A stretch of DNA of 64,000 nt. Source: Tetradesmus obliquus. Lineage: Eukaryota; Chlorophyta; Chlorophyceae; Sphaeropleales; Scenedesmaceae. The notes beneath the pieces are model-generated. The model saw only the letters and a program-made list of their open reading frames with translations, was not told where the DNA came from and did not search any database. Location: assembly GCA_030272155.1 (NCBI GenBank), contig CP126193.1, forward strand, positions 496,001 through 560,000, in the 5' to 3' direction. Shown one piece after another: positions 2,635-61,300 of the stretch (positions are counted from its first letter, which is position 1; every line of letters begins with the position of its first letter). Position numbers and translations under genes: made by a program.

Positions 2635-2953
2635 TGGTGCTCATGTGCAGCCTCTGCTGGCTGGCTTGCAAGCCGCCTAGATCGCCGTGCTGGCTGCTGC
2701 TGCTCTTGCTGCTCGCCGTCAGCGCTTTGGCAGTGCTGCCGCTTTGCTGCACGCTGCTTCGCGCGCTTGCTGCTTCCTGCAAGCAGTTTTGTTGCTGCAT
2801 TTTCCAGCCCTAGCTCAGCCAACACCTGCTTGTTGCGCTGTATGCGGCGCAGGCGTTCCAGTTCATACTCGTTGGCCACTGCTGCTGGGGCGTCTGATGG
2901 TCCGCTGCTGGCGTTCTCTGCCTCATGCCTGCCATGCCTATGGCTTGCTGGGT
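2635..2953 (-). CDS. Exon of a probable chromatin/DNA-binding protein
   Basis: This exon lies between a CTTGCAG acceptor and a GTGAGT donor (phase 2 at its end). It encodes a charged segment with the pattern ELERLRRIQRNKQVLAELGL, then a basic stretch (KRAKQRAAKRQ), Gln-rich spacing and an RRSRRLA motif. The combination of 'Y/E-ER-R-I-N-LaaLgL' helix and RRSxR is common at the N-terminus of plant and algal nuclear proteins, such as WDR76-like and zf-4CXXC_R1-like proteins. I infer a nuclear DNA- or chromatin-associated role only. An in-frame ATG lies just upstream at 2966-2964, so this could be the first coding exon. The following exons at lower coordinates are not resolved. Confidence 0.45.
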
Positions 2954-3691
2954 GACTGCAAGACATATGCACTAAAGGATGTTGGAGCGATTGTTTGGGG
3001 TGTTGTGTCTGTGCTGGTACCCAGTGTTGTGGATTCTGTGCAGTCGAGTCAGCAGGTGCGCTGTTGTTGATCAGCAGTAGGTTGCTGTAGCCAGAAGCGT
3101 GCTGCAGTGCCTGTGTAAGCTCTAACCGGAAGTGCCTGCAATAAAGTGATGCTATGTGTCGCTTAGAACTCCCTTCTGCTGAGAAATGTGCAACTTCAAC
3201 AGCTTTTGAATTCCGCTGTCATATGTGGTGCAAGGGTTTCGTGTTGAGGCGGATCGGACAACCAGACCGCTGTAGGATGTATTGATACATGTGAAAGCAA
3301 TTACCTTGTGTTGTAGGCCTGCTGTAGCCCTGTCAGGAGTAACAGCTGTGAAAGGACCTCCGCATCAGCTGCTCCTAGCTTTTACACAGCTGTCCGGCCC
3401 AGGACAAAAGGAACGATTCGGGGGTTATCTGAGCTGTGCTGATTGCTCAAGAACAGTCGGCGCAGCGGGCACCCGGGTTCTTCAGGTGCTGTTCTTGGCA
3501 GCAGCAGCAACAGCAGCAGTCTCAAGATGTTCAATCAAGGTGAGACCAAGGCACAATAGCAGCATACGTGCGAAGTTGCAGAGCTTTACCTGTAGTGTGC
3601 ATCCTTCAGCTTCACTGCTGTCTACGGCTGCCAGGCAGGGCTGAATGTGTGCATTTGTTGGTCAGCCGCTGCTGCCGCTGCTGCTTTACCC

Positions 3692-5547
3692 ATGCTCTCC
3701 ACTGTGATGGCCTGTGTGCCTGCATGTGTCACGGCAGGCTCAGGCCCCACGCGGCGCGAGACGCGCTCGCGCAAGGTCTCACAGCGCATGGCTGTGGTGG
3801 ATGAGTCCACACGGCAGCAGGTGCGCTGCCCAGGCATGCTGCGTCAACTGCTCAGCAACGGCGCTACGCCTAGCAACGCCTCAGTGTACTGTAGCAGCGC
3901 TGTTGAGGACACCGGCTTCCGACGCAAAGGACTTTGTATGCCTGAGCCCTGGTCGCCTCCCAATGCCAGCCGCTGCAACAGCAAGCTGTAACATGTCGTC
4001 TTTTGCAGAGTGCAGAATGTGGTTATGAAATTGACCTTCTGCTGCCCTGCTGAGGCAACGCCCTACAATCAGCCAACCCATGATCAACCCGCTGCAACAA
4101 CTCTATGCAATGAATGTGCTGCCTGCTTGCTGCACTCCTGCTTGCCTCATTCCTGCTTGCCTTATTCCTGCTCCGGCTGTTGCCAGGCTGCCCAGTCTCG
4201 CCTGGATGCGCTTGAGAACGACAACCCTGATGACGCACCCGACCCTTTCGGGCTGGGTGCGGGCGATGAGGATGATGAGTTTGTTATGGAAGAGTCTGAG
4301 GAGGATGGTGGGTTGCACTGGGATAGATAGAGGGGTTACACGTTGTGTTCATGCGGCATACGCCACCACAGACACCTGGTGAAATCGGAAGCTGCAAGCA
4401 GCTCAGCTCGGGCTGCCACTCTGAGGTTAGCATTGGGCCAGGCTGGCAGGCTTGGTGGCTGGCATGATTGGAAATGCAGTACTCCTGCTGCAGCCAGCGA
4501 TGCTTGTGGTTGGTCAGCGAATGTACGTGTGCATCCTGCAGTCAAATCCCATATGTACCGTGGCTTGCATGCACAGCCTGGTCATTGCCTCAACCTGCCC
4601 TCAAGCAGACTTGACTGCAATTGCAACTGCTGCGCCCTGCCAGAGGTGGATGTGGGGCGCAAGACGCGCCGCCGCAAGCCGGCAGCCAAGCGGCGCACGC
4701 GCGGCGCGGGCGAGGGGCGTGCCGTCAAGAGCTTCCAGCGGCTGGTGGAGGAGGTGAGATTGGAGAATGGATGGGCTGCTTTGCATGCGCGTATTCAACT
4801 GAAGCAGTCGTCTGCACATTCTTCCGATAACTCTGCAGCTGTTCCAGTTCTGGCGGGTGGTTGGCATGCGCGGATTCATCTGGCGGTTTGCATATTTTCC
4901 TACTATTCCGCTGTGCCTGTTTTGGCGGGTGGCAAGTATACTCGGTGACCCGTGCGCAGCGGGGTGCGCAGGCATTGCTTCTGTTTGCTTGCTGTGTCCA
5001 TGCTGGTGTTGCCACAACATGAGGCACACATCCCCCCGTAGGTGATTCAAACCTGGCTCCTACAGGAAACCATATCCGCTGCTGCTGCTGCTGCCGCTGC
5101 TGCTGCCATCTTTGCAGTCCGGCATGCTGGACGCCCCGGCTGGCGACGTGAACTACCTCAGCGCTGCAGCGGGGCCCTCTGTGTTCTATGTGCCGCGCAA
5201 GTTCTGCTCTGTATGCGGCTTCTTGTCATCGTGAGTAGGCTGCTGCCTGTTACTGCACTGTGCTTTGCTATGCGTGTAACGTGGGTTTGCTGCTGTGTAC
5301 TCCTTGTTGTGCCTGCAAATTGATATGCTGCTGGTGCCATCAGCTGATTGGGGTGCTGGTGCCTGATTGGTGATGGCAGCTTGCCTATGGAGGCTTTATA
5401 TGCTGTGTTGCTTGCCAGCCACATATCGTCACACCTTTTTGCCAAATGCATCATGTAAGGTTCATGTGTCGCTTGTAGAACCGCTGGATGCATCCATCCG
5501 TGGCGATCCTTGCACTCCCTATGCTGGCTGGCTGGCTAGCGCTCAGC

Positions 5548-8523: not shown

Positions 8524-8611
8524 CCAGATTTTCGGGTGTTCGTTGCAACGTAGTTGCCTGTGCACACCGTGTAACCCCTCTTCTCTCTGCTTATGGGGCT
8601 ACGTGCTGATC

Positions 8612-8855
8612 CGCAGTGTAGGGCATCTGCAGGCAGGGTGCTGTCAAATGTTACAGCGGAAGCAAGTGGTGGTGTGCAGGCACACGCATGGCACTGAACA
8701 GCGGGACGCACTAGCAAGCCGCGCAGCGTGCCAATTCGCAGTGTAGGGCACCTGCAGGCAGGGTGCTATCAATTGCTATAGCGGAAGCAAGTGGTGGTGT
8801 GCAGGCACACGCATGGCACTCAACAGCAGGACCCACCAGCAAGCCCCGCATACCT
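8612..8855. repeat. Tandem duplication, about 125-bp unit
   Basis: Sequence from 8612 is repeated from 8737 with a small number of substitutions. Both copies keep the long shared block around GCGGAAGCAAGTGGTGGTG. I see no coding function; the minus strand stays open in both copies, which may be chance. Confidence 0.85.
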
Positions 8856-12356: not shown

Positions 12357-12800
12357 TTGATGCTGCAATACAGCTCACACCCGCCGAGCCTGCGCGTCTG
12401 CTCGCCCTGCTGCTCACGCTGCTGCTGCTGCGGCTGCTCTCTTCGTCCTGCAACTCCCGGCCTCCATCAACTGCCACGAGCTCAGGGTGTGTGTGCCGCC
12501 AGCTGCTCGGGTGGGCCCATCCCACCCGCTGCATCACCCAGCCCACCACCCGCACCCTCACCCAGCCCACCACCCCCGCGCTCGCCCTCCCCAGCCCCAC
12601 CAATCCCTGGTACCTCACCCGGTGTTAAGCCGTCAACAGCCCCCGCCCCAGGTGTTTCCCCGGAGCCCCCTCCACCTCCGCCTGTCTACGTGAACGGCCC
12701 CGTGCTCAACCCGGCCTGCGTGGCCAAGTACCAGTCAACGCTGCTGCTGCCGCCCATCATGCCCAAGCTGACAGGGTGAGGGGCAGCCGGGGTGTCCGGG

Positions 12801-12838
<38 letters not shown>

Positions 12839-13778
12839 CCTTGCTGGCAGCCCCTGCTGTGGTTGCTTTTATGCCATTCGGACAGTTTGAATTGTCTGTT
12901 GCCGCATGCCAGCTTGGAAGGAGCCCCTGCATGTAATCTGCATGTCAGCAGAGAGAGACGCACAGCAACTTGATGGCACAGCGCTCGATCAACCCTTTTG
13001 AGCCTTGTCTGGCTCCTTTGTGGGTGGGCCTGTGGCACAAGGCCCGCTATAAAGTAACTACTTTGCTAACTGGTAACTGAAAGCGAAACAATCCTGCGGC
13101 AAGGATGCAGGAGCTGCATGCTGTGGGTACAATGACAGCATTCTACACTGTGACACCGGACACTTTGTGCAGCACTCTGCAGCTGCAGAGGCTGCAGTGG
13201 CGCACATACCTGCACCTCAGTGCACACAGCTGCACCTCAGCACTGCCAGCGCAGCATGCAGATAGAGTCCTTGCTGCACGACATGTTGCAGGCATACCAT
13301 AAGATGTAGCATGCTAAGCAACATGCTGTTGATCACTCAGTGACACTACCATAATTGCTGCTGCTGCATGCTGTACCGCAGGCGGCAGCAACCAACGGGG
13401 CCTATGACCAGGTGTGTGTCGGGCTGACAGGGCGTGTGGTGTCCTGCTCTTCTCAAAATGGGCGCAGTGCGCCATATGTTGCGCATTTCCTGCTGTTTGA
13501 GTCGCTTGCATTTATGGTGGCGCGCACCATCCGAGCTGGTGACTGGACCCACCTGCAGCTGACGCCACTTGCCTGCTGCAGAAAACGATATGCCTGAATT
13601 GCCGCATTCAGTGACTGTGGGTGGGGACTGGGACAGCCTCTCAATAATGTTGTGCAGCGAGCCCTTGCCCCTGTTGCGGATGTGCAGCAAAAGGCACATG
13701 CAGTTATGCAAGATTGTAACAGTGATGCGTGCAGCACCTCTACACACAGTGGAGCATGAAACCCCGTTGCTGCTGCTG

Positions 13779-13825
<47 letters not shown>

Positions 13826-16800
13826 GCCCTGCAGTACAACATCAGCGCCCGCGAGATCCTCCAAGCCGTGCTGCCGCCCGTCTTGCCGGCCAACGCGCCA
13901 CCTGAATGCGCTGGTTACGACCTTACTGCCAAGACGCGGGTGTGGGCGTACGGCACAGACGCGGGAGGCAGCTCCACGCACAACTGGCCATCATACACAA
14001 TTGAAGCAACGGTAGGTTGGCACCTGGCCCTGCTGCACACACTTACTTGAATTGTTCATCTTGTTTGAAAGTAGTTTGTGTATGTGTGTCGGGCTCACTT
14101 CATCGACGCGCATCACCACGTGCAGCATGCGCACGTTGCAGTTGCACGCACTGAAAAGTCATCCCGCTGAACTGCTCAGGGCAAGTCAGCTCTGCGAGCT
14201 CTCTGCTGATGCCCTTGCTGTGGCTGCTGACTGTATTCTTGTGTGCATGCCTGCGTGCTGCAGCGCGGCAAGCCAGTGCAGGTGCTGTGGGGACGCTAAC
14301 GTTTTGTGCTCTGAATGTATCTGTCGTCGCTGCTGCCTGTGTGTTGTGTGCATGCCTGCGTGCTGCAGCGCGGCAAGCCTGTGCTGGTGCTGTAAAACGA
14401 CCTAATCATTGTGTTCTCAAATATTGTTTGTTGTGCTGCTGCCTGTTTGTCTTGTGTGTGGCGCAGCGCGGCAAGCCTGTGCAGGTGCTGTTGGGTAATG
14501 AGCTGGTGGACAGTGCACGGCGCTACAGGCCCCACCTCTTTGCTGACCAACTGGACCAGACGCTGCACTGGTGAGGGGATGTACTGCTTTTGTACCGCCT
14601 AGTGGGAGTGTTGTACTGCCTAGGGGGTGTGGTGTAATGCCTTGAGGGTGCTGTTGTACTACCTAGAGCATGTTGTGGGGCAATGAGCTGGTGGATAGTG
14701 CAAAGCGCTACATGCCTCATCTCTTTGCTGACCAGCTGGACCAGACGCTGCACTGGTGAGGGGATGTACTGCTTTTGTACTGCCTAGTGGGGGTGTTGGA
14801 CTGCCTAGATGGTGCTGTTGTACTGCCTAGAGCATGCTGGCTGACCAGTTGGGTCATATGCTGTATTCGTAGTTGTTTAGCCGACAGCTTGCATCTGCCT
14901 TGGTGTTAGATTTCTGGCAGCATGTGAAACAACAACACCGTACTGCTGTACCTCTGCAGTACTGCTGCACTCGTCTTTCTAAAGCACATTTCTTATCATG
15001 AAGCGCGTTGTGTTGCAGCTGCCTGGCATGTTTGCAAATGGCGGTTGCATTTTACATGCTGCCTGGCTACTGGCAACAGCGCACCAACCCATCACACTCT
15101 GGGGGTGACATTACTGCCTGAAATGCATCGCTAACAGTTGCACGCAGGCAGAGGGTGTGGAGCCCAGGAGCGACGCCCCTGGCCACACACACCCTCCAAG
15201 CCTTAACTTACCCAGGAGCTGCCGAGCTGCCTGGGTAGTCACTCACTCCCTCACTCACTCACAGTGTACCCTGCCGTTTGGTGCATATGTGTGTGTGCAT
15301 GCAGGGCCAACCCCGCGGTGAGATGCCAGACCAACTGCAATGAGGACACCTGCAGGACGATATGGTTTGGGCTGCAGACCTTGTTTACAGCTACCTCTGC
15401 TCAGCATGCTCAGCAGCTGTGCGATAATTGCACTGCCGTATGTGTTGACACCAACTGTGATGCTGCACTTGACAGCAAGAAATGGTGTTGAAAGATTAAA
15501 TGCTAGCATCACAGTCGTGAGTGATGCATTGTTGTAGCGTATGCTTAGCGCGGTGGTTATCCCACTAAGCCACGGCACTGAAACACGCATTGTGCTCCTG
15601 GCTTGCTGGTCCACAACCATCATGCACTCCTGATACTGCTGCTTCCGCTGCTGCTGCTGCTGCTGCTGCTGCCGCTGCTGCTGCTGTGCTTGCCAATGCC
15701 CTGCAATGAGAAGAAGCTGGGAGGCATGCTGGACGACTCCCCCTGCATGGGCTGCCCCAACCCACCCGGCTGCAAGAAGGCAGCATGCACCTGCAACGTC
15801 GCTGCCTGCACGTAAGCGCGCGCCCTGCTTACATAGAAAGTTTACTGTCGTGCATTGCCTGCATGAAAATGCATGAAGTTACTGGTTGAAGATGAAGCCG
15901 CGCCCGGCAAAGACCAGTAAAGCAGTGTCCTTCACGACCGTGTCTTGTATAATGTGTCGTACACACAGGGGGACGCAGGGCACATGTGGTCACAGACACC
16001 ACCGCACAGCACGCGACTTTCAGCGCCAGCCCACCTGCTTGTTGGCGAATACCAGTATGGCGCTGTTCTTCACACGAGTGTCATGCGGATCATAGATGAC
16101 GTGTCGTACATACAGGGGCACGCAGGGCACACACACACAAACACAGGCCTGGCCCCATAGCACCCAATGGCAGCCCACCTGCTTGTTGGCGAAGACCAGT
16201 ATGGCGCTGTTCTTCATGAGTGGGTCCCGTTGAGTATGTTGCAGACAAACACCCACAAACAGAGGCCTGGCCGCACGGCACTCAACTCCTCTGCAACCTA
16301 AAACCAGCCCACCTGCTTGTTGGCGAAGACCAGGATGGTGCTGTTGGTTACACTAGTGTCATGAGCGGGTCATTGAATATGCGTCGTACACACAGGGGCA
16401 CGCAGGGCACACGCGCAAACACAGGCCTGGCCCCATTGCACCCAATCACAGCCCACCTGCTTGTTGGTGAGGACCAGTATGGCGCTGTTCTTCATGAACG
16501 TGTCTTGTACACCGTGGCGTACGCACAGGGGCACGCAGGGCATACAATCATGAACACAGCCGCACAGCACGCGACTCTCAGCGCCAGCCCACCTGCTTGT
16601 TGGCGAAGACCAGTATGGCGCTGTTCTGTATGAGCGGGTCGTTGATGATGCTGCGGAACTCCTGGCCGGCGCGGCCCAGCCTGTCCTTGTCCTGAGAGTC
16701 CACCACAAAGATGAGCCCGTCCGTGTTGTTGAAGTAGTGCCGCCTGCGGGGATAGAAGGGAGCCCACAACAACACAGCTTGAGTGGAGGGTTTGGTGTTT

Positions 16801-17682
16801 CAGCACAGCAAGCAGCGCAGCAGGCCAGGCGGCGGTCACCACGAAGATGAGCCCGTCCGTGTTGTTATAGTAGTGCCGCCTGCGGGGATAGAAGCACATC
16901 CACAACAACACTGCATGAATAGAGGGTTCGGCGTTTCACCACAGCAAGCAGCGCAGCAGGCCAGGCGGCGGTCAGAAGAAAGATGAGCCCGTCTGTGTTG
17001 TTGAAGTAGTGCCGCCTGCAGATTTGACAACAACACGCACCATAACACAGTTAAGTAAATGTTTTGCTACGGTTCAGCACAGGAGGCCGAGCAGCAGGCA
17101 GCAAACTGATGAGCCCGGCCCTGATGTTGTAGCGGTGTTGTCTGCAAGACCACGCAGCAGGCAGCGCGCAGCACAGCAGCATGAGGCCTCGGCACACTGT
17201 CCCTGGCTGATGGCAGGGGTGAGACATGCTGCAGTGGGCTAGACAATGTGCAGTGTAACGCCAGATAACAGCTTGCCAGAAGGCCTGCACTGCACCCCTG
17301 TAGCACACTTCACCCCGGGGCCCTTGTTCTACCTGACAGTGGAACTGAGCCTGCCAAATGCTTGTCATCATGCCTGCCTGCAGCACTGCCGCCACCAGCA
17401 AGTACCTCGGGCCAGTGCCGCTGGTGACGCATGTGCATGGCATGGAAGGCATGCAGGACAACAGCGACGGCACTCAGAGGCCTGGTTCATGCCAGATGCA
17501 GTCAACCTGGCCGGCTATGCAACGGTGAGAGTGCAGGTTGTACTGCTGTGGTGCTTGTTTGTTTGCTCAGGGCAGCTTGTGGTGCAGCTCTTGTTTTGTT
17601 GCCCACAATGTACGCTGCTGGATCTTGCCGCTTGCTGGTTTCTCAAGGAACAAAGCGCTGCTGCTACCTCCGTTGCAACCGC

Positions 17683-17724
<42 letters not shown>

Positions 17725-18122
17725 TTAGAACGGCTCTTGGTATGACATCCTGAGGGCCTCAGCACAGGCCAGCAACCCCGGCAGTGTGTTTGGCCCTGGT
17801 GTTGCCACCTACACCTACCCGGTCTCTCAGAGGCCAGCTCAGCTCTGGTTCCACGACCATGTGTGAGTGGCCAACGCTGCCTGTGATGTTTGTACTGCTG
17901 CATCCACCCGTCCTGTCACATGCAATCACCCGACGCACAAGCGCTCTGGAACCCTGCTGAATGACAAGAGTTATATACCCAGCCACTCAGCAGTTTTTGG
18001 CAGGTTGCACTTGGCAGCAGCCGTAGCTGTATGGAGCATGAATGTGTGTGCTTGTCATTTGGCCAACATTGTAGCACTTGGCTCAACGTGTATGCCGGCT
18101 TGGCTGGCTTCCTCATGATGCA

Positions 18123-18192
<70 letters not shown>

Positions 18193-21100
18193 AGGCTAGG
18201 CATCACGCGCCTCAACGTGTACTCCAGCCTCGCCGGCTTCTTCATGGTGCGCAACGCCTTCCCACAGAACGGCCCCGAGCTGCCAGGCCTGCCCTACCTC
18301 CCACCAGGTATGGGCCCTGACAGCGCAGTGAGGGAGCTGCCGCTGGCCATCCAGGACCGTGCATTCGACACGAGCAATCAGCTGTACTACCCCAAGCAGA
18401 CCACGCTGCCGGCTGCGGACGCACTGCCGAATGGGCCTGTGCCGCCGACTTGGGTGCCTGGTAAGACGCGGGTGGCGTCCTTGCAGCAGTAGTGACAGCG
18501 CTGCAGCTGCAGAGCAGTGAGCCTCACGGCTACAGCAGTAAGACAATGCAGTTGAAGTAGTGCTATACATTGTGGCATTGCTGCACAGCCGGTCGAGGAT
18601 GTGCCGAAGATTATGGGGGTGGCACTTTTTGCAGCAGCCCCTGCAGCTGCATTGAGCGCCACGGCTGCAGCTGGTGCAGCGGCACACCTGTGCCGCAGTG
18701 GTGCTGCAGCTGCTGCTGGTGGATAGTTGCTTGCCGCCGCAGCTGCTGTAGGCACGCCGCATTCCAAGCCCCTCCCGCACAGCACTAGTCACAGCTGGCG
18801 CCAGCTTACAAACGTGCTGTTTGTGCTCCGTATGCTTTGCAGAGTTCTTTGCCTCCCTGCCAGATGGCAGTGACGCGACACTGATGACAGTCAACGGCCG
18901 CGTGGCACCCCGTCACGTGAGTTGCGTTATGTTAGATTGAGTGACATTACAGTTGCCTGCGTGGCCTGCCAGATCAACCAGGGTGGTGCACCACCTCTGC
19001 ACAGTATATTGCTGTGCAGGTTCGGCATATGACTACAGCAAGCAATGCTTGAGCAGAGACAGCGCAAGAGCCTCACAGCGCAGCGCAGTGTGTGTGACTG
19101 TCGGTTGCAGCGCTTTGCTGGTGACGCAAGAGCATAGGTCCAAGGAGGCTTGCCTGTATTTGATACGTAGGACAACGTGTAATCTTCTGGTTTGCTGCCG
19201 GTGCTTGCTGCAGGACGTTGCCAAGGAGCCGTACAGGCTGCGCATCCTCAACGGCTGCAATGCAAAGTCGCTCATCATCTACTTCAGGTGCGCACAACAG
19301 CTCCACAGCAGTCCTTCAACGCCGGGGCCAAGGCAACTATCAATTGCAGCTGCAGGTGCTGACCTGGTCTGCAAGCACATTGCAGCGCTGCATCAGCTCA
19401 AGTGCACTACGCAGTTGCATACCAATGCATAACATTCAACAGCACGCCGCAAAAACTAAAACCACACATGCCACGCTTGTGAATGCTTTCACCTGTCACA
19501 GACACGGTGTCTTGCAATCAACATTATGCGGTCCCTGTCATCTGCTGCCTGCAGCACCACTCAGCCCACTGTGGGTGCTGAAGTGGTGACCAGTGGTGTG
19601 CTGCCCTTCTGGGTGGTGGGCAATGAGGCAGGCTTCTTTCCTTCACTGGTGGGCCCAGTCACTCAAGTGCTGCTGGGCCCTGCGGAGCGTTATGACGTCA
19701 TTTTTGACTTCAGCACCGTGCCTGGCAGTGAGTTGCCGCAGCAGGCTGTGCGCAGAATGTGGCTGCTTTGAGACGTTGGGAGTGCACAAGATGTGGCGTT
19801 GAGACATTGAGTGTGCACGATATGTGTAATCTTGTGGTTTCAAAACAACAAGCGTGCATTATGCAGTGGCTTGCAGCGCATGCGTTTGTTGGCCAAAGCT
19901 GGCTGCGCGGGGAAGCGGCTTGATGGCGGTTGAGCAGACGGCGCATGTTGGGCGGTCGAGGCATGATGTGGTGCGCGCCCCCACGCATGTGCAGCCTGAC
20001 CAGGCGATGTGCACAGTGTACAATAGCCTCTAAGCAGTAGGAACGTCGGCACATGGTGTGTCATACAGCAGCACATCTCCTGTGCAGCTGCACAACGCAT
20101 TTATAGCCTGAAGCAGGCGTGCGTAGCCAGCAAGCAGCATAATGCGTGACACGTTGTGCGACAGGTTCTGTGACGCCTGCTTCATGTGTGCCGCGTGCCT
20201 GCAGATGCCGGCAGTGTGTACATGCTCAACAAGGGGCCAGGGGTGCCCTTTAATGGGGCTAATGTTGGCGGGGGCACAACTATTCATCAGGCCCAGGTGC
20301 GAGCAAAGGCTTCAGCAGCAGCCAAAGCAGTAGTCGTGTACCAGGCAGTGCATGTATACTTGACTACTTGATTACTTGCTACTTGTATACTACTGCTGGC
20401 GTCTGTTTGTAAGCATCAGTTTATGTTTGCTTTTGCAAGAGTGTTTCTGTTCCTGCTGCTGGTGGTGCTGCTGCTCTTTGCATCCTGCAGGCCATGCGCT
20501 TTGACGTGCTAAAGTCGCCAAACAGTATCACGTTTGACAAAGCTCGGCGCGCAACGCTGGATGCTGCGCTGCGAGCTGAGTACAACAAGGCGCCCACCCA
20601 GCTGCCAGCAGCGCCCAGCAGGACACGGCAGGTAGGCGTGCTGCGCCAGCATACAAAGTTACTTCTCACTTAACTGGAACTGCAAATTGACGAGACCAGA
20701 GCTGCCCCTCAGAAAGGAGGTGTTTTGCAAGCATGCACTTCATCACTGCATGCGAGCCTGCCATCTTTGACTGCATTCCTCAGACGTCGCTGTACACGCT
20801 TTGTATTGCTGCGCTGCTGTGCAGTTTGCGCTGCTGGAGTACTTTGGGTCCAACGGCAACCCCATGGGCCAGTTCATCGGCAACGTGGACGCGACCAACC
20901 CCGCTGCGCTGCAGGGTGTGAAGCAGACCTGGATGGACCCGGTGAGCAGGCCAGGCCAGGTGCTGCATTCATGTGATGCACTGAAGTCATGGAGGCAACA
21001 TGTTTGGCCACGCTTGCCCTGTTTCTGGGCACAGATACATGGTTGCTGCATTGTTGCAAGCTGTTTAGGTTTGAAACATGATTGTGCTATAGTGACTATA

Positions 21101-22767
21101 CATAACATCTGCATGTTAGGATAACTGGCTGGCCTCAATGCATTGTATGGGCTGCCCGTTTCCTTGTGCCTGGTGCTACCTATGGATGTGTCGAAGATCT
21201 CACCGCCGGCTCTGCTGGTGGGCCTGTGTGTGCAGGTGGCGGCTGTGACTGGCACCGACGCAGTTGAGCAGTGGACCATCATCAACCTCACCGGGGATGC
21301 ACACCCCATCCACATGCACAAGGGCCTCTTTGAGGTGAGTTTTGTTGCCAGTCAAAGCTGCCACCTGCACATATATTTCACCAGCAGAGCTGGCTATAGA
21401 ACCTCACCGGTGATGCACACCCCATCCACATGCACGAGGACCTCTTTGAGGTGAGTGCACACAGGTCACACATCACAAGTTCTACAGCATCCCCCATCAG
21501 TCCCACAAGCAGCTTCACATTCACCGCGTGCGTACAGAAACATCTGAACCTTGATGATTAAGTTGACCGCCGTCACTACTCACCCTGGCGTCTGTGCACT
21601 GCTGCCCTCATTTCTATTGTGCAGGTGGTCACGCAGGAGGAGGTGACCATCAGTCCTTTGATACTATCTGTTCCATAAATGTGCCGTCACTGACCACCCT
21701 GGAATAACCACCGCACTGCTGCCGTCAATTTCTACAGGTGGTCAAGCAGGAGGCGGCAACCATCAGCCCCACAGGCGCCTTCACCTTCACCGGCCAGCTG
21801 GGCCTGCCAGCAAAGCTGCTGGAAGGCAAACTCAGCAATCATCCAGGAACATCTGAACCCTGAAAACCACTGCGACCCCGTCACTATTCACCCTGGCGTC
21901 TGTGCGCTGCTCCCCTCATTTTCATCACGTAGGTGGTCAAGCAGGAGGCGGTGACCATCAGCCCCACAGGCGCCTTCACCTTCACCGGCCAGCTGGGCTT
22001 GCCAGCAGGGCTGCTGGACGGCTAGATTGCCAGTGCTCCGTGTGACACAGGCACCTGCTTTGTGCGCAAGGACACCATGCTCGTGGCAGCGGGTTACGCC
22101 ACCACGCTGCGCTTCAAGGCCGCCAGCAGGCCTGGCCTGTTCATGTGGCACTGGTGAGCGTGACTGCCGCACACACACGCATGCGGTTTGCATGCTTGTA
22201 CGGGTACCAACATGACTAGCTGCACAGGCAGGTGCTGCAGAGATGTTAGATGTCTCCAGGCGGCCAGCAGGCCCGGCCTGTTCATGTGGCACTGGTGAGC
22301 TTGGTTGCCGCATGCAGAGATGTTAGATGTCTCCAGGCGGCCAGCAGGCCCGGCCTGTTCATGTGGCACTGGTGAGCGCGACTGCTGCTAACGTCGCACA
22401 CGCGCATGCATGCGAGTTGGCATGCTGAGATGCACACACAGAGAAGCTGGGTAGGCAGGTGCTGTATAGATGTTGTCATGGATGTCAAAGGCGGCCGGCA
22501 GGCCTGGCCTGTTCATGTGGCACTGGCGAGCTTGACGTCCCGCACACGCTTGCACATGCAGACATGGCTAGCTGCACCTACAGGTTGCTGCATAGATTGC
22601 GGATGTTTCAAGGCGTCCAGCAGGCTTGGCCTGCACATGTGGCTATTGTGAGCTTGAATGCGGCACGCACACGCATGTATGTTTATTGTATGCGTGTACC
22701 TACAGACATGGGAAGCTGCATAGGTGGGTGCGGCGGGAAAAGCAGTTGAGGAATTTGCGGCATGCAA

Positions 22768-22834
<67 letters not shown>

Positions 22835-22911
22835 ACCATGCCTGCGCTGCAGCCAGCTGCTGGAGCATGAAAATTATTCATTCCTTCAGGCACTATTCAA
22901 AGCGTTATGCG

Positions 22912-22975
<64 letters not shown>

Positions 22976-23094
22976 AACCGTGCCTGTGCTGCAGCCACCT
23001 GCTGGAGCACGAGGACAATGAGATGATGCGGCCCTTCTGCATTGGCAACCCTGGCTACACCAACCCGCACACAAACAAGCCCATGTGTGCCTGA
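12357..23094 (+). CDS. CotA/bilirubin-oxidase-type multicopper oxidase, possibly broken
   Basis: The family (laccase-like) oxidises phenolics or metals by reducing O2 to water; it is probably secreted. Exons I infer: up to 12775, 13382-13411, 13835-14011, 14467-14570, about 15305-15317, about 15706-15811, 17384-17524, 17729-17862, 18195-18460, 18843-18916, 19214-19287, 19555-19727, 20205-20296, 20491-20631, 20825-20941, 21236-21334, 21933-22153 and 22995-23094. From 13382 to 14570 and from exon 15706 onward the phases fit. All four copper motifs are present: THVHG, WFHDH (split by an intron before LGITRLNVY), HPIHMH, and HCHLLEHEDNEMM spliced across 22153/22995. The N-terminus is a Pro/Ser-rich stretch after a hydrophobic, signal-like region whose start I could not fix; the first donor does not match the next exon in phase. 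Defects: one base missing at 17471-17474 and an in-frame TAG at 22023-22025. Either a recent pseudogene or assembly errors. A TGTAA at about 23395 could be the poly(A) signal. Confidence 0.85.
14264..14392 (+). repeat. Two upstream echoes of the 5' edge of exon 14467-14570
   Basis: The acceptor and first about 25 bases of the exon (R-G-K-P-V-Q-V-L) recur at 14264-14292 and 14368-14392. Each is preceded by a matching GCAG and flanking intron sequence, with 104- and 99-bp spacing to the real acceptor. Confidence 0.88.
14677..14770 (+). repeat. Downstream echo of the 3' edge of exon 14467-14570
   Basis: The last about 75 bases of the exon plus its GTGAGG donor and the following intron bases are repeated, with the junction at 14755. 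The peptide is nearly unchanged (NELVDSAKRYMPHLF against NELVDSARRYRPHLF). Confidence 0.9.
15899..16592 (-). repeat. Array of about five echoes of the 3' edge of an Arf exon
   Basis: On the minus strand, units ending in NSAILVFANKQ followed by the donor GTGGGC occur with junctions at 16457, 16313, 16179 and 16035, plus a decayed copy near 15900. The period is 134-144 bp. Each unit holds the last 10-20 codons of the exon plus about 80 bp of intron. Confidence 0.88.
16593..16743 (-). pseudogene. Orphan exon of an Arf-family small GTPase (ARFB-like)
   Basis: One full exon: a CCCCGCAG acceptor, one split base, 50 codons, and a GTGGGC donor. It encodes the Arf core from RHYFNNTDGLIFVVDS to NDPLIQNSAILVFANKQ. 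That covers the region after switch 2 and the guanine-specificity motif NKQ (NKxD family, with the D in the next exon). The NDP-x(3)-NSxILVFANKQ wording resembles plant ARFB. No exon for the P-loop (GLDAAGKT) or for the C-terminal third was found on this strand nearby, so this looks like a displaced gene fragment. It lies antisense inside an intron of the oxidase. Arrays of partial copies flank it on both sides. Confidence 0.85.
16744..17141 (-). repeat. Array of echoes of the 5' edge of the Arf exon
   Basis: The acceptor plus the first 13-15 codons (RHYFNNTDGLIF) recur with exon-like starts at 16879 and 17015, and as a more diverged copy at 17141. The spacing is 126-136 bp. The intron-like filler between copies is also shared. 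The copies nearest the real exon are the most similar to it. Confidence 0.85.
17688..17722 (+). repeat. (CTG)n tract before oxidase acceptor 17729
   Basis: Roughly a dozen CTG units end just upstream of the CTCCTTAG acceptor of the exon encoding the WFHDH copper motif. Confidence 0.85.
18071..18194 (+). repeat. Echo of the LNVY exon edge followed by a (CTG)n tract
   Basis: 18071-18120 is a diverged copy of the first about 50 bases of exon 18195-18460, reading LNVYAGLAGFLM where the real exon reads LNVYSSLAGFFM. It is followed by about 70 bases of CTG/TTG repeat that run into the real acceptor. Confidence 0.8.
21400..21450 (+). repeat. Duplicate of the HPIHMH exon end with its own splice sites
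   Basis: Seventeen codons (NLTGDAHPIHMHEDLFE) sit between a CTATAG acceptor and a GTGAGT donor, phase 0 at both ends. The sequence copies the end of exon 21236-21334. It could be skipped, or included without a frameshift. Confidence 0.85.
21625..21834 (+). repeat. Two upstream echoes of the VVKQEA exon edge
   Basis: Copies of the 5' edge of exon 21933-22153 start at 21625 (about 29 bases retained) and 21738 (about 95 bases retained, including AFTFTGQLGLPA). Each has an AG acceptor and shared upstream intron sequence. The copy at 21738 has GAA-GGC-AAA where the real exon has GAC-GGC-TAG. Confidence 0.85.
22240..22650 (+). repeat. Four downstream echoes of the PGLFMWHC exon edge
   Basis: The last about 40 bases of exon 21933-22153 plus its donor recur with junctions at 22294, 22371, 22525 and about 22648. 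The first two keep GTGAGC, the third has GCGAGC, and the fourth has lost the donor. This is an ordered series of decay. Confidence 0.9.
22770..22994 (+). repeat. Duplicated (CTG)n plus acceptor plus CHLLEHE exon edge
   Basis: A block made of about 20 CTG units, a short GC-rich link, a GCAG acceptor and the first codons of the last oxidase exon occurs twice. The upstream copy begins its exon part at 22863; the real exon begins at 22995. In the upstream copy the copper-ligand His is Gln (C-Q-L-L-E-H-E), so it could not make a working active site. Confidence 0.88.
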
Positions 23095-42791: not shown

Positions 42792-43493
42792 CTATGGCAG
42801 CGTCCGAGAGCTGGACACTCCTTGAGACACAAGGGTGTAACCAGGTTTTGTGACGGAAGCAAGGGAAATGGTGCACCATGCGTTGGGAGCGATAGGTATC
42901 TGTTTTGTCTTGGATTTAAAAACGCCATTGCCGCCGCTGTAACCAACATCTGCAAACGGCATGTTGCGTGCAGGGTTGCTGGACGACCACGACACAGTGA
43001 CAACTGCACTGCTGATGGGGGCATTGGTGCGTGCATCCCTGACACTGACGGATGCGGTGCACACAACAGATGACGACCCCCTCTCACTAGTCATCACAGG
43101 CGAGAGTGCAGCAATCATCTGCAGAGGTGCTGGTGAGGGGCTGGGCGAGGGGCTTGGTAACAGGCTGCCTGGCAGGCTGGGCGATGGGCTGGGCGATGGG
43201 CTGGGCGATGGGCTTGGCAACACATCAGGTGACGGGCTGGGTGATGGGCTTGGCAGTACATCAGGTGATGGGCTGGGTGATACATCAGGAGATGGGCTGG
43301 GAGATGGGTTGGGAGATGGGCTGGGCGATGGGCTGGGCGGTACATCAGGTGACGGGCTGGGTGACACATCAGGAGATGGGCTGGGTGATGACTCTGTTGG
43401 TTGTTGGTTTTTTAACTCAGCGCCGTTGGCACCGCCACCGCCTGATGGCGAAGGCGATGGCGATGGGGAAGGTGACGCGCTTGGCACCACAAG
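42792..43493 (-). other. Last exon of metalloprotease 2: Ser-Pro linker and C-terminal domain
   Basis: This 233-codon exon starts [13 protein letters not shown], has about 100 residues of [12 protein letters not shown] repeats, then a domain with two Cys and a beta-sandwich-like pattern ([21 protein letters not shown] ... AWCTISL) ending at a TAG. The same order (Ser-Pro linker, then C-x-A-x-V ... domain) ends metalloprotease 1. Ser-Pro linkers are typical of hydroxyproline-rich extracellular matrix proteins of green algae. Confidence 0.8.
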
Positions 43494-51210: not shown

Positions 51211-54186
51211 TGCGGGACAGTATCAGGCACAAATGCGAGCAGTACAATGCACTGTGCTGCAGACATTCACATGATCTGGCGGCAGCGGCGGCGGCGGCAG
51301 CAGCAGCAGCAAGAGCAACAGCAGCAGCAGCATGCGTAGGCTGGTCTCGCCTGTACCCAGCAGACCTGCTGGCAAGGGCCCATCACATGCTGTGTGCAGT
51401 ACTCAGTGCATGAAGTAATGGCGACTGGCATGCTCATGAGCAGGCTCTAGGCAATCAGAGTGCAGCTGCTGACACTGCTGTGTTGACGATGACTGATTGC
51501 ACGCTTACTTGGTTGGCGCCAGGGTATTCGCCTGCAGGCGCAGCAGCGATTACAAGCAGGTAGCGAGGAATAAGTTGCCATACTCATTGATGCAGTGCTT
51601 GCATCAATTAGTTACGCCGCCTACTGCTTGACGCACTGCATGCCTAGGAAGGCAACAGCCATGTACATGTGTGTAACCGAGGACACCTGTGTGCGAGCAG
51701 GCGCAACACAGCACTGCTGTGACAGCACACACATTACTGCTTCTTTGGCTATGCCTCACCTTTGCTCCATTGTGTCAACCGAGACAAGTAGCCTGCAGAA
51801 GAAGAAACATTGCATGAAAGTCAACTGGTGAAAAGACGCAGAAGTGGCTGATTGGCTTCGATAAGATAATTTTGCAAAAGATGTTATTGTCATCTTGCAG
51901 GGTGTACGGCAGCAGGCTGCAGCACTCCAATGGTGTCTATCTTTGTCAGGTCCAAGCTAAGTGCTGTGAAGCATGTGTAAACGTAGCCACTCACTTTGAC
52001 CCTGTTATTGGAGAGCCACCAGAGCAGAATCAGGCAGCCAGCAAAGCGGATAGACAAAATTGGCAGCAGCAACAGCAGCAGCAGAAATAGGGCGACCGAA
52101 GGTTGTCAGTAACTCACTTTTGCAGTTACCATCTTGAACCACAGCAGGAGTGCAAGGTATTCGTGGGGTGCAATGCGGCATGCGCCCTGCTTTATGCATC
52201 TGCTGCACATGTACAGCCAAACACTGTCTTGTCGGGTTTCAGCAGCACTCTCTACCTGTCCACGTTCACTCAAAACTACAATAGATGTGTGGGAAGTTGC
52301 ACAGCCAGACATGAGCAGCACTGAAGCTCACCATGATTGGTGCCCACTCTTGAGTTCCTTGGTAGTATTCTGACACTCCTGCCACCCCATCACTGCAAGG
52401 CAGATGTGAACCCACAACTGAGCGCACAGGCTAGCAGCAGAAGCCGAAGACAGAGAAATTGCCCTTGCAGTATAGTGCATTGCTGAGGCAACATGACGCG
52501 TTTGGTGGAGCAGATGGCTGCATGCTGTCATCCTTGCCTCTACATGTCGCGGTCGCAGGAGGCATGTGTTGCTGCCACTTCAACCGCCAGCCAGCATCGC
52601 CATCCCTGCTGGTGCGCACTGCTCTGCTGCAAGCTGATAACCACCAAACATTGCATGTTCAGTTCTGCAGCATCCTCAGGCGTTGGGTTGGCTGACATAT
52701 GCGCAAGCAGCAGCAGTTCTAGCAGGCCGCAACAGCAGCAGCTACTCACTGGGACAGTCCCAAGGTGTGGCCAGCTGCAAGAAAAGCATCAGCAGAGATG
52801 CACAGCATGACATGCAGTCAGCTGTTGGTGCTGGCAACTTAAGCACAACATTGATGTGCATGTCGGCCCATGTGCACGCAAATCAACAAGCAACATGCAC
52901 TGGCCATGCACTGCAGCCCCACTACTGCGGCATGCAAGCAGCAAGCAGCTGTTTATGGCTGTCGGCGATCTGATCAACAGCATGCATATGTGCAGGTGCC
53001 TTTCAGTGTTCACTCAGGTTGTACCTTTCATCCTGTCTCACAGCAGACCTAATAACATAAGCTAAGTTCATCAACCCGTCGCACAGCAGTCCTGAGGTTT
53101 GCAGCTGAGCTGATGTACATGCACACAGCGAAAGCAGCGGAACTGCACCTTCATGCGACACGGCCTCCCAGATGTTCTTGGTGAAGTTTGTCAGCCGCTG
53201 CAGGGAGGTGCAGACGCACAGCACGGCAGTCAGCAATTGCAGGGGGCAACCTTTAGGCAGCTGGCAGCTTCCCAGTACCACACCAATACCACTACCAAAG
53301 TATAGGATTGACCTGCCTGGCGGCTGACAGCAGTTCCTCCTGTTTGTCCACGGCAGCATGGCGCACAAGAAGATGCACGAACCACGCAGCCATCTGCTCC
53401 AACAAAGCAGCCTATGCCTGCCACTGCTAGTGAAGCGCTCTGATGCCGGCTGCTGCCATTTGCTGAGAGCCAGCCGTTACAACAAATCAGCAATAGTACA
53501 GTGTAATGCAGAGCGGCACGGCGCCCATGGCCCTGGCAATTGCTAAGCCGTCGTTCTCACCATTGGGAAGACGAATGCTGGCTGTGCTGTGACATTCCCA
53601 AAGGAGTTGAGGTTTGCCACACCGCCAGCACTGCCTGAGTACCACGACCCGGCTCCACCTGAACAGCGGAAATGCAGCAGAAAGCGGTACTCAAGCCATG
53701 GCTCGCTGGCCAGCACAACCCAACGGCTCAACTGGCAAGTTTGCGCACAAATGGTCTTGCATCTCTTCTTGAGCTTTAATGATACAGCAAGCACCGAGTT
53801 GCATGGTCTGCTGGTCTGGAGTGCTTTTTGTTAATGCGCCACAGGTGTCGCCCTTGACTCGAGTTGGTAGCTTACCTATCACAACGCGCGTGTAGGTGGG
53901 GGAGAGTAGGTCGGGGGGCGGCATGTTTGTCACATCGATGTTGAACGGCGCATAATCTGCAATGCGGCAGTGGGCGGGGCACGTGTCATGGGTGATCAGC
54001 GCACCGTGACAATGCTGTTGTTGATCAGGTGCCTTGCATGCAGCAGCGGCTGCTGTGTTGTTGCATGCGCCTGCGTAGTGGCTTGCTGCTTTTTTGATTG
54101 CACATGTGCGTTACGAGCGCAGGGTGGGTGCTGTAGGAACATGCCACGTCCAGTGGCTGCTGGCTGGCTGGCTGGCTGGCTGTGAA

Positions 54187-54230
<44 letters not shown>

Positions 54231-54433
54231 TGAAGCTGGCTGGCTGGCTGGCTGTGAGGCTGGCTGGCTGGCTGGCTGTGAGGCTGGCTGGCTGTGAAGC
54301 TGGCTGGCTGGCTGGCTGGCTGTGAAGCTGGTTGGCTGGCTGGCTGGCTGCTGGCTGGCTGGCTGTGAAGCTGGCTGGCTGGCTGGCTGTGAAGCTGGCT
54401 GGCTGTGAAGCTGGCTGGCTGGCTGGCTGTGAA

Positions 54434-54469
<36 letters not shown>

Positions 54470-55785
54470 TGAGGCTGGCTGGCTGGCTGGCTGCGAAGCT
54501 GGCTGGCTAGCTGGCTGTGAAGCTGGCTGGCTGTGAAGCTGGCTGGCTGGCTGGCTGTGAAGCTGGCTGGCTGTGAAGCTGGCTGGCTAGCTGGCTGTGA
54601 AGCTGGCTGGCTGTGAAGCGGGCGCTGCAGCACACCTTCAGCCACAGCCACCAGAATCGCCATCATCTCTTCCTTCTCTTGCCTGCGACAGCCAGCACAA
54701 GGCGTCATCAGTCAGTTTGTGCAGTGGGCATGGCCTGAACCTGTGCACGGGCACCCGTGCAGCCTATATATATGTGAAGATGGGTGCGGAAATATTAGGG
54801 CAGTACCAGGTCTGTTGACGCAGCATGCAGGGTTGCACATGCAAGGTGTTGTGTGCATGTATGCTGCACTTGTTGCTGCCTTGCAGTCTTGCAGCCCCGG
54901 ATGCAGCTACGGTGGCTCAAAATAGCACTCACGGTGAAAAGGTAGTGATGTCACCATCCTGTGAGCAGCACAATGGAAAAGTGGCGGCGGAAAGGAGTTT
55001 AGAAACAGATCAGCAAGTATGAGTTGCATTTCAGCGCTAGCTGCCACCAATGCCTCCGCAGGTCTCCTTTACGTATGCATGAAGTGCACATTCAAGCCAC
55101 CCTTGCCTGCATGTTGCGCAGTGGCGTACCTTGTCATATGGCGAAGTGAGGATGACGCTTTGAAGCGAGTTCCAGGCTGCATGGATTGAAAAAAGCAGCA
55201 GCAGACGCGGCATGGCATGAAGCAGCAAACCGCCTTGCATGGAACTGCTGTTGGGCTTGAGCCATGCACTTTGCCAAGTGTAGCCATCCCTGGTGCTTGG
55301 CGGGTGCTGCTGTATCCGAAACAGACAAGCTGCAGTGCTGCCTGCTCAGGATGTCTGTCATCGCTGCTGCTGTGACTGCCATGCTAGCGCAGGTGCAGCT
55401 AAATGACGTCACAGCTGCAGTCCACACATGTCTGCCTGCTATATGTCGCTATGCTGTTTACCATCGCCGCTGCTGCTGCTGCTGCTGCTGCCGCACGTCG
55501 CATGCAGTGTTGCTGGCTGCCGCCGCACTGCGTCTGCGCCGCACTTGAGTTGGTGATTGTGCTGCCAGCAAAGTCCAGCCAGAGAGTGTAGGGGGCTCCT
55601 GGCCTTGAGTTGAAGATGAAGGGAATCGCATCAATCTTGGCGACTTTCGGTTCGGTGGTGCTGCCTGTGGCATCGGAGGTGGGGATGGTCTCCAGGGGAG
55701 TTGTGACCAGCTGGCTGCATCCATACTGCAGCGCCTCGTTCACCTCATCCACACCCTGCGGTGTCACGGCAGACGGCAAAGGTGA

Positions 55786-58340: not shown

Positions 58341-61300
58341 TCACCACCGGGCTTCAGCCGTCAGCTGTGACGCAGCTGCATCCCACATGAATCCCGGCAG
58401 AGACACAGCGGTGAGCGTCATGGTGCATACACGGAACGTCCGTGTGTTGATGTTCCCCACTGGCAGCAGTGCCACCCCATTGCTGGTACTGCTGCCTGCA
58501 GCCGCTACTGCCATCGGGCTCCAGGTGCCAGCGACTGACACACTTGACAGTGCAGCCCCATCAGACGTCCGTACCACTCTTGCAGATGCGGTACAGCTGC
58601 GCCTGTTGTTGCTGAAAGTTGATGAGACAGTCAGAGAGCTGACTGCCATGCTCTGCAGAGGAGCTGCTGGCGGTGCTGGGCTTGGGGAGGGCCTGTTGTG
58701 TTGAAAAGGAGGTTGGATGCAGCAGCAAGGCACCCGCAGCTCACTGTGTCAGTCCCTAGCATTTGCTTATGCTCAGGCACTGTTTGCAGGGAGATATGGC
58801 TGGTGCGGCCCACTTGCATGATTGCTGCTTTGAACATTGCTGCTCTCCCTAGCAACCTTCATTGGTTTACGGGATGAGGCGCGTTGCTTCAACTGTGAGC
58901 GCTGGCAAAACGAACCACTAAGCGCCGAGATGGTCATAGCGAGCCGGATGATCAACAAATGAATGCAGCCTACAACAGCAGATGGAGCTCAAACCTAAGC
59001 AAGCATTGCCAAGCCATGACAGGAGCCACGACACTCACGCAATGTTGACGCTTGGTGACGGGCTGGGGCTGGGCGACGGGCTGGGTGACGGGCTGGGCGA
59101 CGGGCTGGGGCTGGGCGACGGGCTGGGTGACGGGCTGGGTGACGGGCTGGGTGATGGGTTGGGTGATGGGCTGGGTGATGGGCTGGGTGATGGGCTGGGT
59201 GACGGGTTGGGTGATGGGCTGGGTGACGGGCTGGGTGACGGGCTGGGTGACGGGCTGGGTGACCGGCTAGATGACGGGCTGGGTGATGGGCTGGGTGATG
59301 GGCTGGGGCTTACTAGCTGAGGAGAGGGTAATGGATCAACGGGTTGTAGTAGTGGTGACGCGTTGGGCGGGGAAATTAATATGTCTGGGGATGGGCTGGG
59401 AATATTTGGGGATGGGCTTGGGCTGCGAGTAGGCAAGCACAGCTTGGTGTTATAACTGGGCGCTGAATGGACAGAAAGGGTTGCTGGCACTTGCCAGATA
59501 TTTCATACATACCACTTACATGTTGTTTCAATTGCTTAAGTGAAAGAAGGTCTACAGCTGGGACTAGCATGTATTGATGCGAGGAGAGCAGCATGTGCAA
59601 GTTGCAATGCATGAAGCGGCGTGGTAGCTGTGTGGCGCAGCAAACATGTCACACCGTGCCAGTGTTGCTTTTGGGTGTGGCATTCCCGGCGGCTGCAGTG
59701 CAGGGCTGCAGTGCCATGCATGTTGTACAGTGCAGTGTCCAAACTGGCATGCAAGAGAGTGGTTGCTGCAGTGCAGTGGCAGGCAGTGCAGGCTCGCGTA
59801 CCTAGGACTGGGGCTGGGGCTGGGCTTGGGTGGACTTGGCTTCAGCGTCACTGCCACGCTGTACGCGCCAAGGCTGGCGTAGTTTGTGTAGTAGTTGCTC
59901 CAGCCGGTGCCGCCCACAGACACAAAGAACACGCCTGGGCTCACTGACGCGCTCAGCGTGGCAGAAAAGGAAGTGTAGCTGGGCCGGCCGCCGGACGCTG
60001 GCACTGCATTGGCAGATGCGATCTGCCCGCCGCTGGAGTTGAACAGCCGCAGCGCGATGTCCAGGTTTGCCCGCAGCGCATTGTTGCAGCAGCCAACTGT
60101 CGGCTTGGCGGCTATCGTGACCGCAGCCGCATACGGGATGTTCAGCGCGTGGAACTCTGCTGTGCCGGTGCGTGCCACGAGGCCTGTGGTGTTGCCGCTC
60201 ATGGTGTTGTTTGTACCATTCACCAGCAACAGCGGCATCGCGTTTGCGATGTTGATTGCTGTGCGTGGGATGTACGCCAGCCCTCCAATGCTTGCCATGA
60301 CTGCCAGGTCATCTTGCGGGCCGGCATTTGACACATATGCACAGGGGTAGCCTTTGCCGTTGTCCCAAGATGAAAAAGTGGCGTTGTAGGCGTTACCTGC
60401 AAGCAAGATCAACCAAGAGTAAGCGGGTCCGCCCAAAGCCCTACCACGGCAGGTGATCATCGCCACAAGCAGATTCTGGACGCAGATTCAGGAGATGTCT
60501 GCTGATGCTTTGCATCATCCCTCCGTACAACTGGGATACACACAGCAGGGAGTAGCTGCACCAACATACATCAACGCTGCCGGGCACAGCTCAAGCAGCT
60601 CGCTGTTGACAGCTGCAGCAGTCTCGCACCCATAATCGGCGCCCAGTTGTAGCTGTTCAGCTGGCCATCGTAGTACGTCTGATTCTGGTACGCAGAGCAG
60701 CCAGGCAGTGTTGACAGCAGCTGGTCGTGGTACAGGCCCAGGCTGTGCCCCACTTCGTGTGACACAGCACTCCACACTAGGAAGGGATTGCCATTGCCCA
60801 GCTGGGCGGGGAACACGTAGCTGCAGACGATGCACACACATGCAGCGTTGCAGGAGTGATATGCAGTAACAGCGGCAACACTAGAAAGGGGTTGCCACTG
60901 CCCAGCTGGGCGGGGAACACGTAGCTGCATGCAGGGACAGCCACACGGCATGTTGCAAGGGCAGCAGGACCAGCGATGGGCATTTACAGGGCTGGCAGTT
61001 TGGGTCGCCTTTCCGAGCAGCAGTTTGAGGCATGCCTGGCTGCGCTATGCTTGCAGCACCCCTGATCTCACTGCTCAATAGCGTCGCAGGCTACCAAGCT
61101 GCGTGCCGTACACAGAGCTGCTTGCTGACGCGCACCTGGTGTATGTTTCGTTGAGGTCCGAGCGCCAGGCGAAGCTGGTTACGTATGTCAGGCCGCCAGC
61201 CAGCAGGCCAGTCCACGTGGAGTTACCGCCAATGACCACTCGTATGCTTTGTGTGGGTATGAGTCCAGCATCCAGTGTCGTGACATCGACATCAAACATG

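Follow-up and report, generated by a model that had tools for sequence, protein, structure and literature searches.

Exon edges in the green alga Tetradesmus obliquus recur, with their splice sites, as partial copies in the introns beside them, and on balance we favor local tandem duplication, at the DNA level, of segments that straddle splice junctions as the origin of these copies, here called echoes. Echoes were studied in a 64,000-nucleotide stretch of contig C3 (positions 496001 to 560000; the window), which carries a multicopper oxidase gene of the CotA/phenoxazinone-synthase-like type (PDB matches with E about 1e-11; Pfam Cu-oxidase_2, 1.2e-15), and in 30 further loci of the same genome (104.66 Mb, 17 contigs), namely the Arf gene of contig C16 and 29 loci around kinesin matches, so that 31 sequences and 315 kb were analyzed. 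Because the loci were picked by kinesin or Arf match and not at random, the frequencies given below are not genome estimates. Exons were predicted ab initio by a small, purpose-written gene finder (a hidden Markov model with kinesin and oxidase exons as its training set), which covered 63 of 65 kinesin matches over more than 70% and returned 412 confident exons (median length, 151 bp) in the 315 kb. For the echo scans, every confident exon was masked in the target sequences, and matches had to score at least 36 bits; reversed own flanks and swapped flanks served as controls.

Exon starts (heads) recurred upstream in 29 of 397 own flanks and exon ends (tails) recurred downstream in 27 of 408, against 8 of 395 heads downstream and 9 of 400 tails upstream. 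The comparison with shuffled exon-intron pairs, which the initial annotation of the window had named as a possible refutation, was run on all 315 kb and gave no head or tail match in the swapped flanks, and neither did the reversed own flanks (0 among 393 to 408 per class); exon middles matched in 2 of 212 upstream and 6 of 217 downstream flanks and in 1 of 213 in one swapped control. Across all 412 exons, 56 same-side and 17 cross-side edges were found, but all 17 of the latter belonged to exons scoring below 15, several of which resemble echoes themselves; among the 252 exons scoring 15 or more, the same-side rule proposed for the oxidase exons was upheld by 30 same-side edges and no cross-side edge. 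In a kinesin exon set taken straight from the Pfam search (65 of 135 rows, the omitted ones having internal stops or lying in loci unfetched at that stage), 7 of 65 exons had echoes, and every exon-edge copy was on the same side.

Echoes are present outside the window as well, in kinesin, Arf, WD40 and GST genes, as a general process would have it; seven proteins from echo-bearing ("hot") loci, some of them trimmed, were placed by Pfam as kinesin (four), WD40, GST and Arf. This generality extends to many genes beyond the window but not to every gene: the 45 echo exons fell in 9 of the 31 loci, whereas 5,000 random draws of 45 echo exons gave a mean of 23 loci and never fewer than 16. In loci without echoes, none of 508 exon-edge windows and one of 862 mid-intron windows had a local copy; these counts are near zero partly by construction because hot loci were labeled only after echoes had been seen. 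Third-position GC was slightly higher in hot loci (0.795 versus 0.762). The suggested lengthening of introns was borne out, with a median of 368 bp for introns with an echo versus 270 bp for those without in the same loci (P = 0.016) and 240 bp in the other loci. Such lengthening would be consistent with the mean intron length of 462 bp given for T. obliquus, which exceeds those of the four other green algae tabulated with it (PMC5966456).

In the proposed mechanism, the duplicated segment would mostly span 90 to 150 bp, with one end usually 20 to 70 bp into the exon and the other in the intron. After duplication, only the innermost junction would remain joined to the exon body and hence stay in use, and presumably this innermost site is the one that is spliced. 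Because the coding copy remains joined to its exon, the other copies would fall outward, starts upstream and ends downstream. Thus, of the systematic outward pattern claimed for the window, the same-side placement stands, but a special rule is unneeded, since the placement follows from tandem duplication across a junction. Arrays would grow through further exchange or duplication between copies while the intron becomes longer and the copies degenerate. The molecular event would most simply be staggered breaks followed by fill-in and end joining; fill-in at staggered breaks is described as yielding small tandem duplications in mouse and human cells (PMC8355091).

Neighboring junction copies were spaced 90 to 149 bp apart in 70 of 93 cases, one array held nine echoes, and in several arrays (e.g., L018 5081) the copies had, by eye, a common exon-side breakpoint. 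Direct adjacent copies, the hallmark of tandem genomic duplication, were found in 24 merged families (at least 0.7 of the period, 80% identity or more), and many other echo families retained just the exon-edge part. Splice strength, echo-echo identity, codon changes, far sides and flanks were assessed on copies whose alignment reached at least 2 intron bases and at least 15 exon bases (110 copies from 51 edges), a set that is biased toward kept splice sites by the intron requirement; 44 of 168 alignments in the scan of the 412 exons ended before the junction. The far-side, outermost-flank, splice-strength and spacing sets also omit exons scoring below 9 and hence the tail array of oxidase exon e16 in the window, which has a 77-bp step. 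Among copies passing the 2-base intron requirement, echo donors scored 7.5 versus 6.5 for real donors, echo acceptors scored 4.7 versus 6.3 for real ones and 0.7 for random AG, and in 31 of 93 cases the echo scored higher than the real site it copies. Echo sites are thus comparable in strength to real ones, and from this sequence measure it is plausible that echoes could act as decoy splice sites.

Local-duplication families were associated with splice junctions well beyond chance. Of 60 families, 48 touched an exon edge (including some coding repeats, e.g., window 43132-43390), 10 were noncoding only and 2 lay inside exons, while random placement in the same loci predicted 15.4 edge-touching families (95% range, 9 to 22). 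Within genes, 40 of 43 families touched an exon edge versus 18 (12 to 24) expected, and the five kinesin-motor regions alone gave 13 of 14 versus 5.6. The bias was also seen in young full-unit copies, i.e., those whose alignment covered 0.7 or more of the period, with families wholly within exons excluded: 20 of 23 families touched an edge at 80% identity or more (expected, 6.6), 12 of 15 at 85% (expected, 4.5) and 4 of 5 at 90% (expected, 1.4; P = 0.016), and the three edge-free families at 85% include the window pair 22236/22313, itself an e16 echo. This junction preference is not derivable from tandem duplication and is the new part. Since spacing is mostly below 150 bp and the median exon measures 151 bp, nucleosomes may be a placing factor. 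A possible but tentative extension is that junctions are the target, with the exon edge and splice consensus copied or kept beside the exon at a nucleosome-like spacing of about 90 to 150 bp; if true, introns would grow as arrays of half-exon decoys, with their junctions preserved and the remainder of each unit subject to turnover.

An unlikely alternative is that tandem duplication is blind to junctions and that detection is biased, coding constraint on one partner keeping copies that contain exon sequence recognizable for longer. In hot loci, local copies were found in 26 of 240 intron-edge, 80 of 656 mid-intron and 59 of 277 exon-edge 40-bp windows, an approximately twofold exon-edge rate such as one-sided constraint would give, although the mid-intron windows in this count contain the arrays themselves. 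Detectability within the same copy differed in the same direction: in a symmetric 40-bp window test at junctions, the exon edge was detected in 72 and the intron edge in 30 of 82 copies (both sides in 20, the exon side only in 52, the intron side only in 10), and the same test at pseudo-junctions inside introns gave 18, 22 and 27 (both, one side, other side). However, when exon edges were made 2-, 3- or 5-fold more detectable in the within-gene null, 24.9, 28.6 and 32.9 edge-touching families were expected (P < 0.001, P < 0.001 and P = 0.004, respectively), still short of the 40 of 43 seen, and young full-unit copies were equally edge biased. Junction-blind duplication alone is therefore insufficient.

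Several observations weigh against local tandem duplication across junctions as a full account. Exon depth at 26 edges was 21 to 70 bp, with a mean of 48 bp versus 71 bp under uniform breakpoints (lower-scoring cases in the window reach deeper, with 85 exon bases in the e4 tail and 90 in the e16 head). Decay was uneven: in echo-echo pairs at an exon score of 20 or more, identity was 0.917 in exon parts and 0.576 in adjacent 50-bp intron parts (random, 0.503), the exon part being higher in 35 of 35 pairs; over all scores it was 0.903 versus 0.720, with the exon part higher in 114 of 127. This decay departs from a plain neutral clock. In a by-position profile with no intron-side limit (63 of 72 exon-edge rows used, 59 copies passing an identity filter; the nine omitted rows were two at L024 1574, two at L006 8129, one at the window 21738 tail and four at L026 2996), exon identity stayed at about 0.94 up to the junction and fell just beyond the splice consensus. 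AG or GT was retained in 54 of the 59 copies, with an identity of 0.96 at positions 1 and 2. Intron identity was 0.83 at positions 3 to 6, 0.48 at 7 to 12 and 0.33 at 21 to 40 in the 46 copies without detectable intron similarity, a class defined by that absence; it was 0.87, 0.85 and 0.59 in the other 13 copies and 0.52 to 0.61, 0.27 to 0.29 and 0.26 at unrelated real junctions. Comparing the copies without gaps depresses intron identity as well. The intron flank of the outermost copy was undetectably related to the others in 21 of 45 families. Between Arf paralogs, the exon part of echoes (9 of 80) and the spacers (30 of 175) did not differ significantly (P = 0.26), and turnover of the Arf arrays makes their copies hard to pair as a clock. 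In L038, an oxidase paralog, the 618-bp e15-e16 intron has no echoes of those edges; echoes are therefore not the sole source of intron length. Finally, no mutational process is known that would produce the junction bias. One-sided constraint and indels account for part of the uneven decay; the remainder may be due to selection acting on the junctions of echoes, to conversion by the exon or to copying that is confined to the junction.

Retention by selection, in which duplications arise anywhere and those carrying a junction are kept as a functional splice site (a decoy tuning intron retention, or capture of U1 or U2AF), is rather unlikely as the general explanation, although it would suit the high identity through exon edge and consensus, the kept AG and GT and, in the set limited to at least 2 intron bases, donors that score like real ones and acceptors well above random AG. 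Codon changes between echoes were 42 synonymous and 48 nonsynonymous (47% synonymous versus 29% under uniform mutation), and an apparently old e8 head echo common to the window and a C7 paralog points the same way. On the other hand, the AG/GT retention of 0.92 roughly matches the expectation from exon-part identity, the Arf difference is not significant, the junction bias is already present in young copies, and use of a decoy would usually insert a frame-breaking spacer (13 of 93 segments are open and in frame). Changes between echo and exon were 65 synonymous and 51 nonsynonymous, a 56% synonymous share against our estimate of roughly 45% if the exon is constrained and the echo neutral, the copies not being independent. 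The idea that echoes are translated is left undecided by this synonymous excess, which is just somewhat above the expectation.

The initial annotation had also offered alternative exons as a use of the copies, and this part did not hold up. It is very improbable that echoes are alternative or mini-exons spliced into variant proteins, even if some of them were called exons by the gene finder and the deposited oxidase model OEZ86_002257 contains positions 21625-21642, part of an e16 head echo, as a mini-exon; that model may be mispredicted. Far-side acceptors in tail echoes scored 2 or more in 19 of 47 cases, above the 28% of random sites, but the other thresholds were at chance (acceptors of 4 or more in 6 of 47 versus 14%; donors of 2 or more in head echoes in 7 of 42 versus 12%). 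With no clear splice site on its far side, an echo is half an exon; copies with both splice sites, as in tandem or mutually exclusive exons, were not found, nor, judging by these site scores, was a new intron between copies, as in intron gain by tandem duplication. The period showed no preference for multiples of three (remainders 0, 1 and 2 in 34, 28 and 31 cases), and 30 of 93 segments were open versus 27.6% of random segments. Apart from the tail acceptors at 2 or more, neither far-side scores nor reading frame supported mini-exons. An artefact of assembly or gene prediction is similarly remote: the exons are ab initio predictions, and several with low scores look like echoes, which would produce apparent cross-side cases, but the copies are graded from 100% to about 75% identity, as had been noticed for the oxidase exons, the seven hot-locus proteins match Pfam families, and the kinesin-motor regions on their own reproduce the bias. 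Least probable of all are introner-like or other mobile elements bearing splice sites. Spliced, intron-sized repeat families are reported in, among others, green algae (PMC9860276), but comparison of 138 echo and junction flanks with the analyzed loci gave 39 matches elsewhere: 5 were short (19 to 30 bp), and the two Arf paralogs accounted for the other 34. No mobile family that could have supplied the spacers was found among the analyzed loci, no whole-genome spacer search having been made.

The history of the oxidase echoes was followed in paralogs within this genome, which lie at C3:13295 (82% over exon 8), C7:4314455 (78%) and C7:4331695 (76%); the first two (L037 and L038, respectively) were compared with the window gene. 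Exon searches found no copies of the window-echoed edges in L037, and its introns measure 166 versus 455 bp in the window (e3-e4), 295 versus 598 bp (e15-e16) and 379 versus 841 bp (e16-e17); these echoes are thus absent from an unduplicated relative, in this one gene family. L037 has a single repeat (6902/7014). Neither L037 nor L038 yielded counterparts of the window's echoes of the e4 head, e15 tail, e16 head and e16 tail; these echoes would most simply be gains in the line of the window gene. In L038 the e4 tail has a separate array whose exon breakpoint differs, by eye, from that in the window, and the e4 tail was probably duplicated on two occasions. The e8 head echo of L038 ends, by eye, at the same exon position as that of the window, and this echo looks old and common to the window gene and the C7 paralog. 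The window e8 echo has TATGCCGGC, as does the L037 exon, where the window exon has TACTCCAGC; agreeing with the former and not the latter, the echo looks like a fossil of an older exon. In the intron after e4, TGTACTGCCTAG-type repeats are common to window 14571-14840 and L038 1622-2175, both of which have e4-tail echoes.

Self-alignment of the window and exon-by-exon BLAST recovered the oxidase exon-edge copies named in the initial annotation, all on the forward strand. Exon e4 (14467-14570), also present in L037 and L038, has two head echoes with acceptor, at 14264-14292 (offset -203, 93%) and 14369-14393 (offset -98, 96%), and a tail echo at 14671-14755 that keeps its donor (88%; within a 169-bp tandem copy). 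The e8 head (exon 18195-18460) recurs at 18082-18121 (80% over 40 bp; alignment offset -129), and the e15 tail (exon 21236-21334) recurs at 21400-21450 with its donor kept, as seen by both methods. Exon e16 (21933-22153) has head echoes at 21625-21656 (found by exon BLAST) and 21738-21827 (93%), followed downstream by four tail echoes: at 22255-22294 (donor kept; both methods), at 22332-22371 (donor kept; inside a 65-bp stretch identical to that of the first), at 22488-22525 (donor now GC; exon BLAST) and, more decayed but with its donor kept, at 22607-22647 (both methods). The copy noted near 22863 is present as a weak head echo of e17 (exon 22995-23093) at 22835-22876, with a CTG tract upstream, but belongs to a repeat family at 22835-23012. 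The gene itself has a frameshift in e6 (17384-17524) and an in-frame TAG in e16 (22023-22025), both absent from L037; the deposited model begins after the former and stops at the latter, and the window gene is probably decaying. The deposited protein P0006 reads GLFEVVTQEEVVKQEAV, in which VVTQEE corresponds to 21625-21642.

The same rule was confirmed at two further window exons, both on the reverse strand. Arf exon 2 (16593-16743) stands alone inside an oxidase intron, Arf exon 1 not being found within the window (the lone exon and both its echo arrays span 15910-17132). It has head echoes at 16837-16894 (offset about -136) and 16979-17019 (about -272) and tail echoes at 16454-16504 (+136), 16310-16382 (+280), 16176-16245 (+414) and 16032-16069 (+558). 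The exon is near-identical to that of the C16 Arf gene (147 of 151 positions), with flanking aligned stretches mostly at 75 to 86%, and the C3 and C16 arrays differ by one tail copy. The second exon, 60630-60820, whose translation has, by eye, a metalloprotease-like HEVGH motif, has one head echo at 60878-60929 (offset -104, 94% over 52 bp). Elsewhere in the window, a clean two-copy 125-bp tandem duplication (90%) at 8602-8850, with no confident exon nearby, is among the few noncoding cases, and minisatellites lie at 54154-54623, 59066-59307 and 43175-43388, with units such as TGGC and GGGCTGGGTGAC. In L024, the gene finder calls a 1,030-bp stretch at 2927-3956 (reverse strand) as a single exon because it forms one open frame; the stretch holds about six echoes of a kinesin exon head, together with CTG tracts. 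Tandem copies of about 250 bp at 442-1762 of the same locus (forward strand) encode GYTPESVDEYFYQDSWQGP-like peptides and may be a coding repeat, not echoes.

These arrays offer many graded natural test cases for two open questions: how introns grow, and how the spliceosome selects one of several near-identical sites spaced by about 100 bp. The innermost position of the coding copy, despite the comparable splice scores of echoes, points, as a first guess, to exon definition in this alga. Echoes are also a potential source of annotation errors, as the deposited model that contains one illustrates. A literature search, mainly of listings and the beginnings of abstracts, brought up no recognized report of exon-edge echo arrays, and the main text of the genome paper on S. 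obliquus (PMC7590803) does not contain the words intron, exon or tandem.

Among known systems, decoy exons that promote intron retention are unused intronic splice sites, two per decoy, whereas echoes carry one. The tandem-duplication model of intron gain likewise invokes a local tandem duplication that provides duplicate splice sites, but it duplicates an exonic AGGT and creates an intron, while the alga duplicates existing junctions and lengthens existing introns. Duplications from break fill-in resemble echoes in being short, local and direct and a regular repair outcome; they were described at induced breaks in mouse and human cells, with no splice-junction preference in the text examined (PMC8355091). 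Introner elements, too, are repeated intronic sequences with splice sites, but they form one family across many genes (PMC9860276), whereas each algal array matches its own exon and, in the analyzed loci, no near-identical sequence was found in introns of many unrelated genes. A further likeness in kind is with the RdRp gene of potato, in which a tandem genomic duplication crosses an intron-exon boundary, the segment comprises an intron end and the start of the next exon, and the parent junction supplied most of the splice signals, according to the account in PMC4974935. That account concerns one case, in which the upstream exon piece is used and an intron was gained via a cryptic donor (PMC4974935); in the alga, by comparison, the copies remain intronic, both exon ends are hit, one array reaches nine echoes, and 45 exons are involved.

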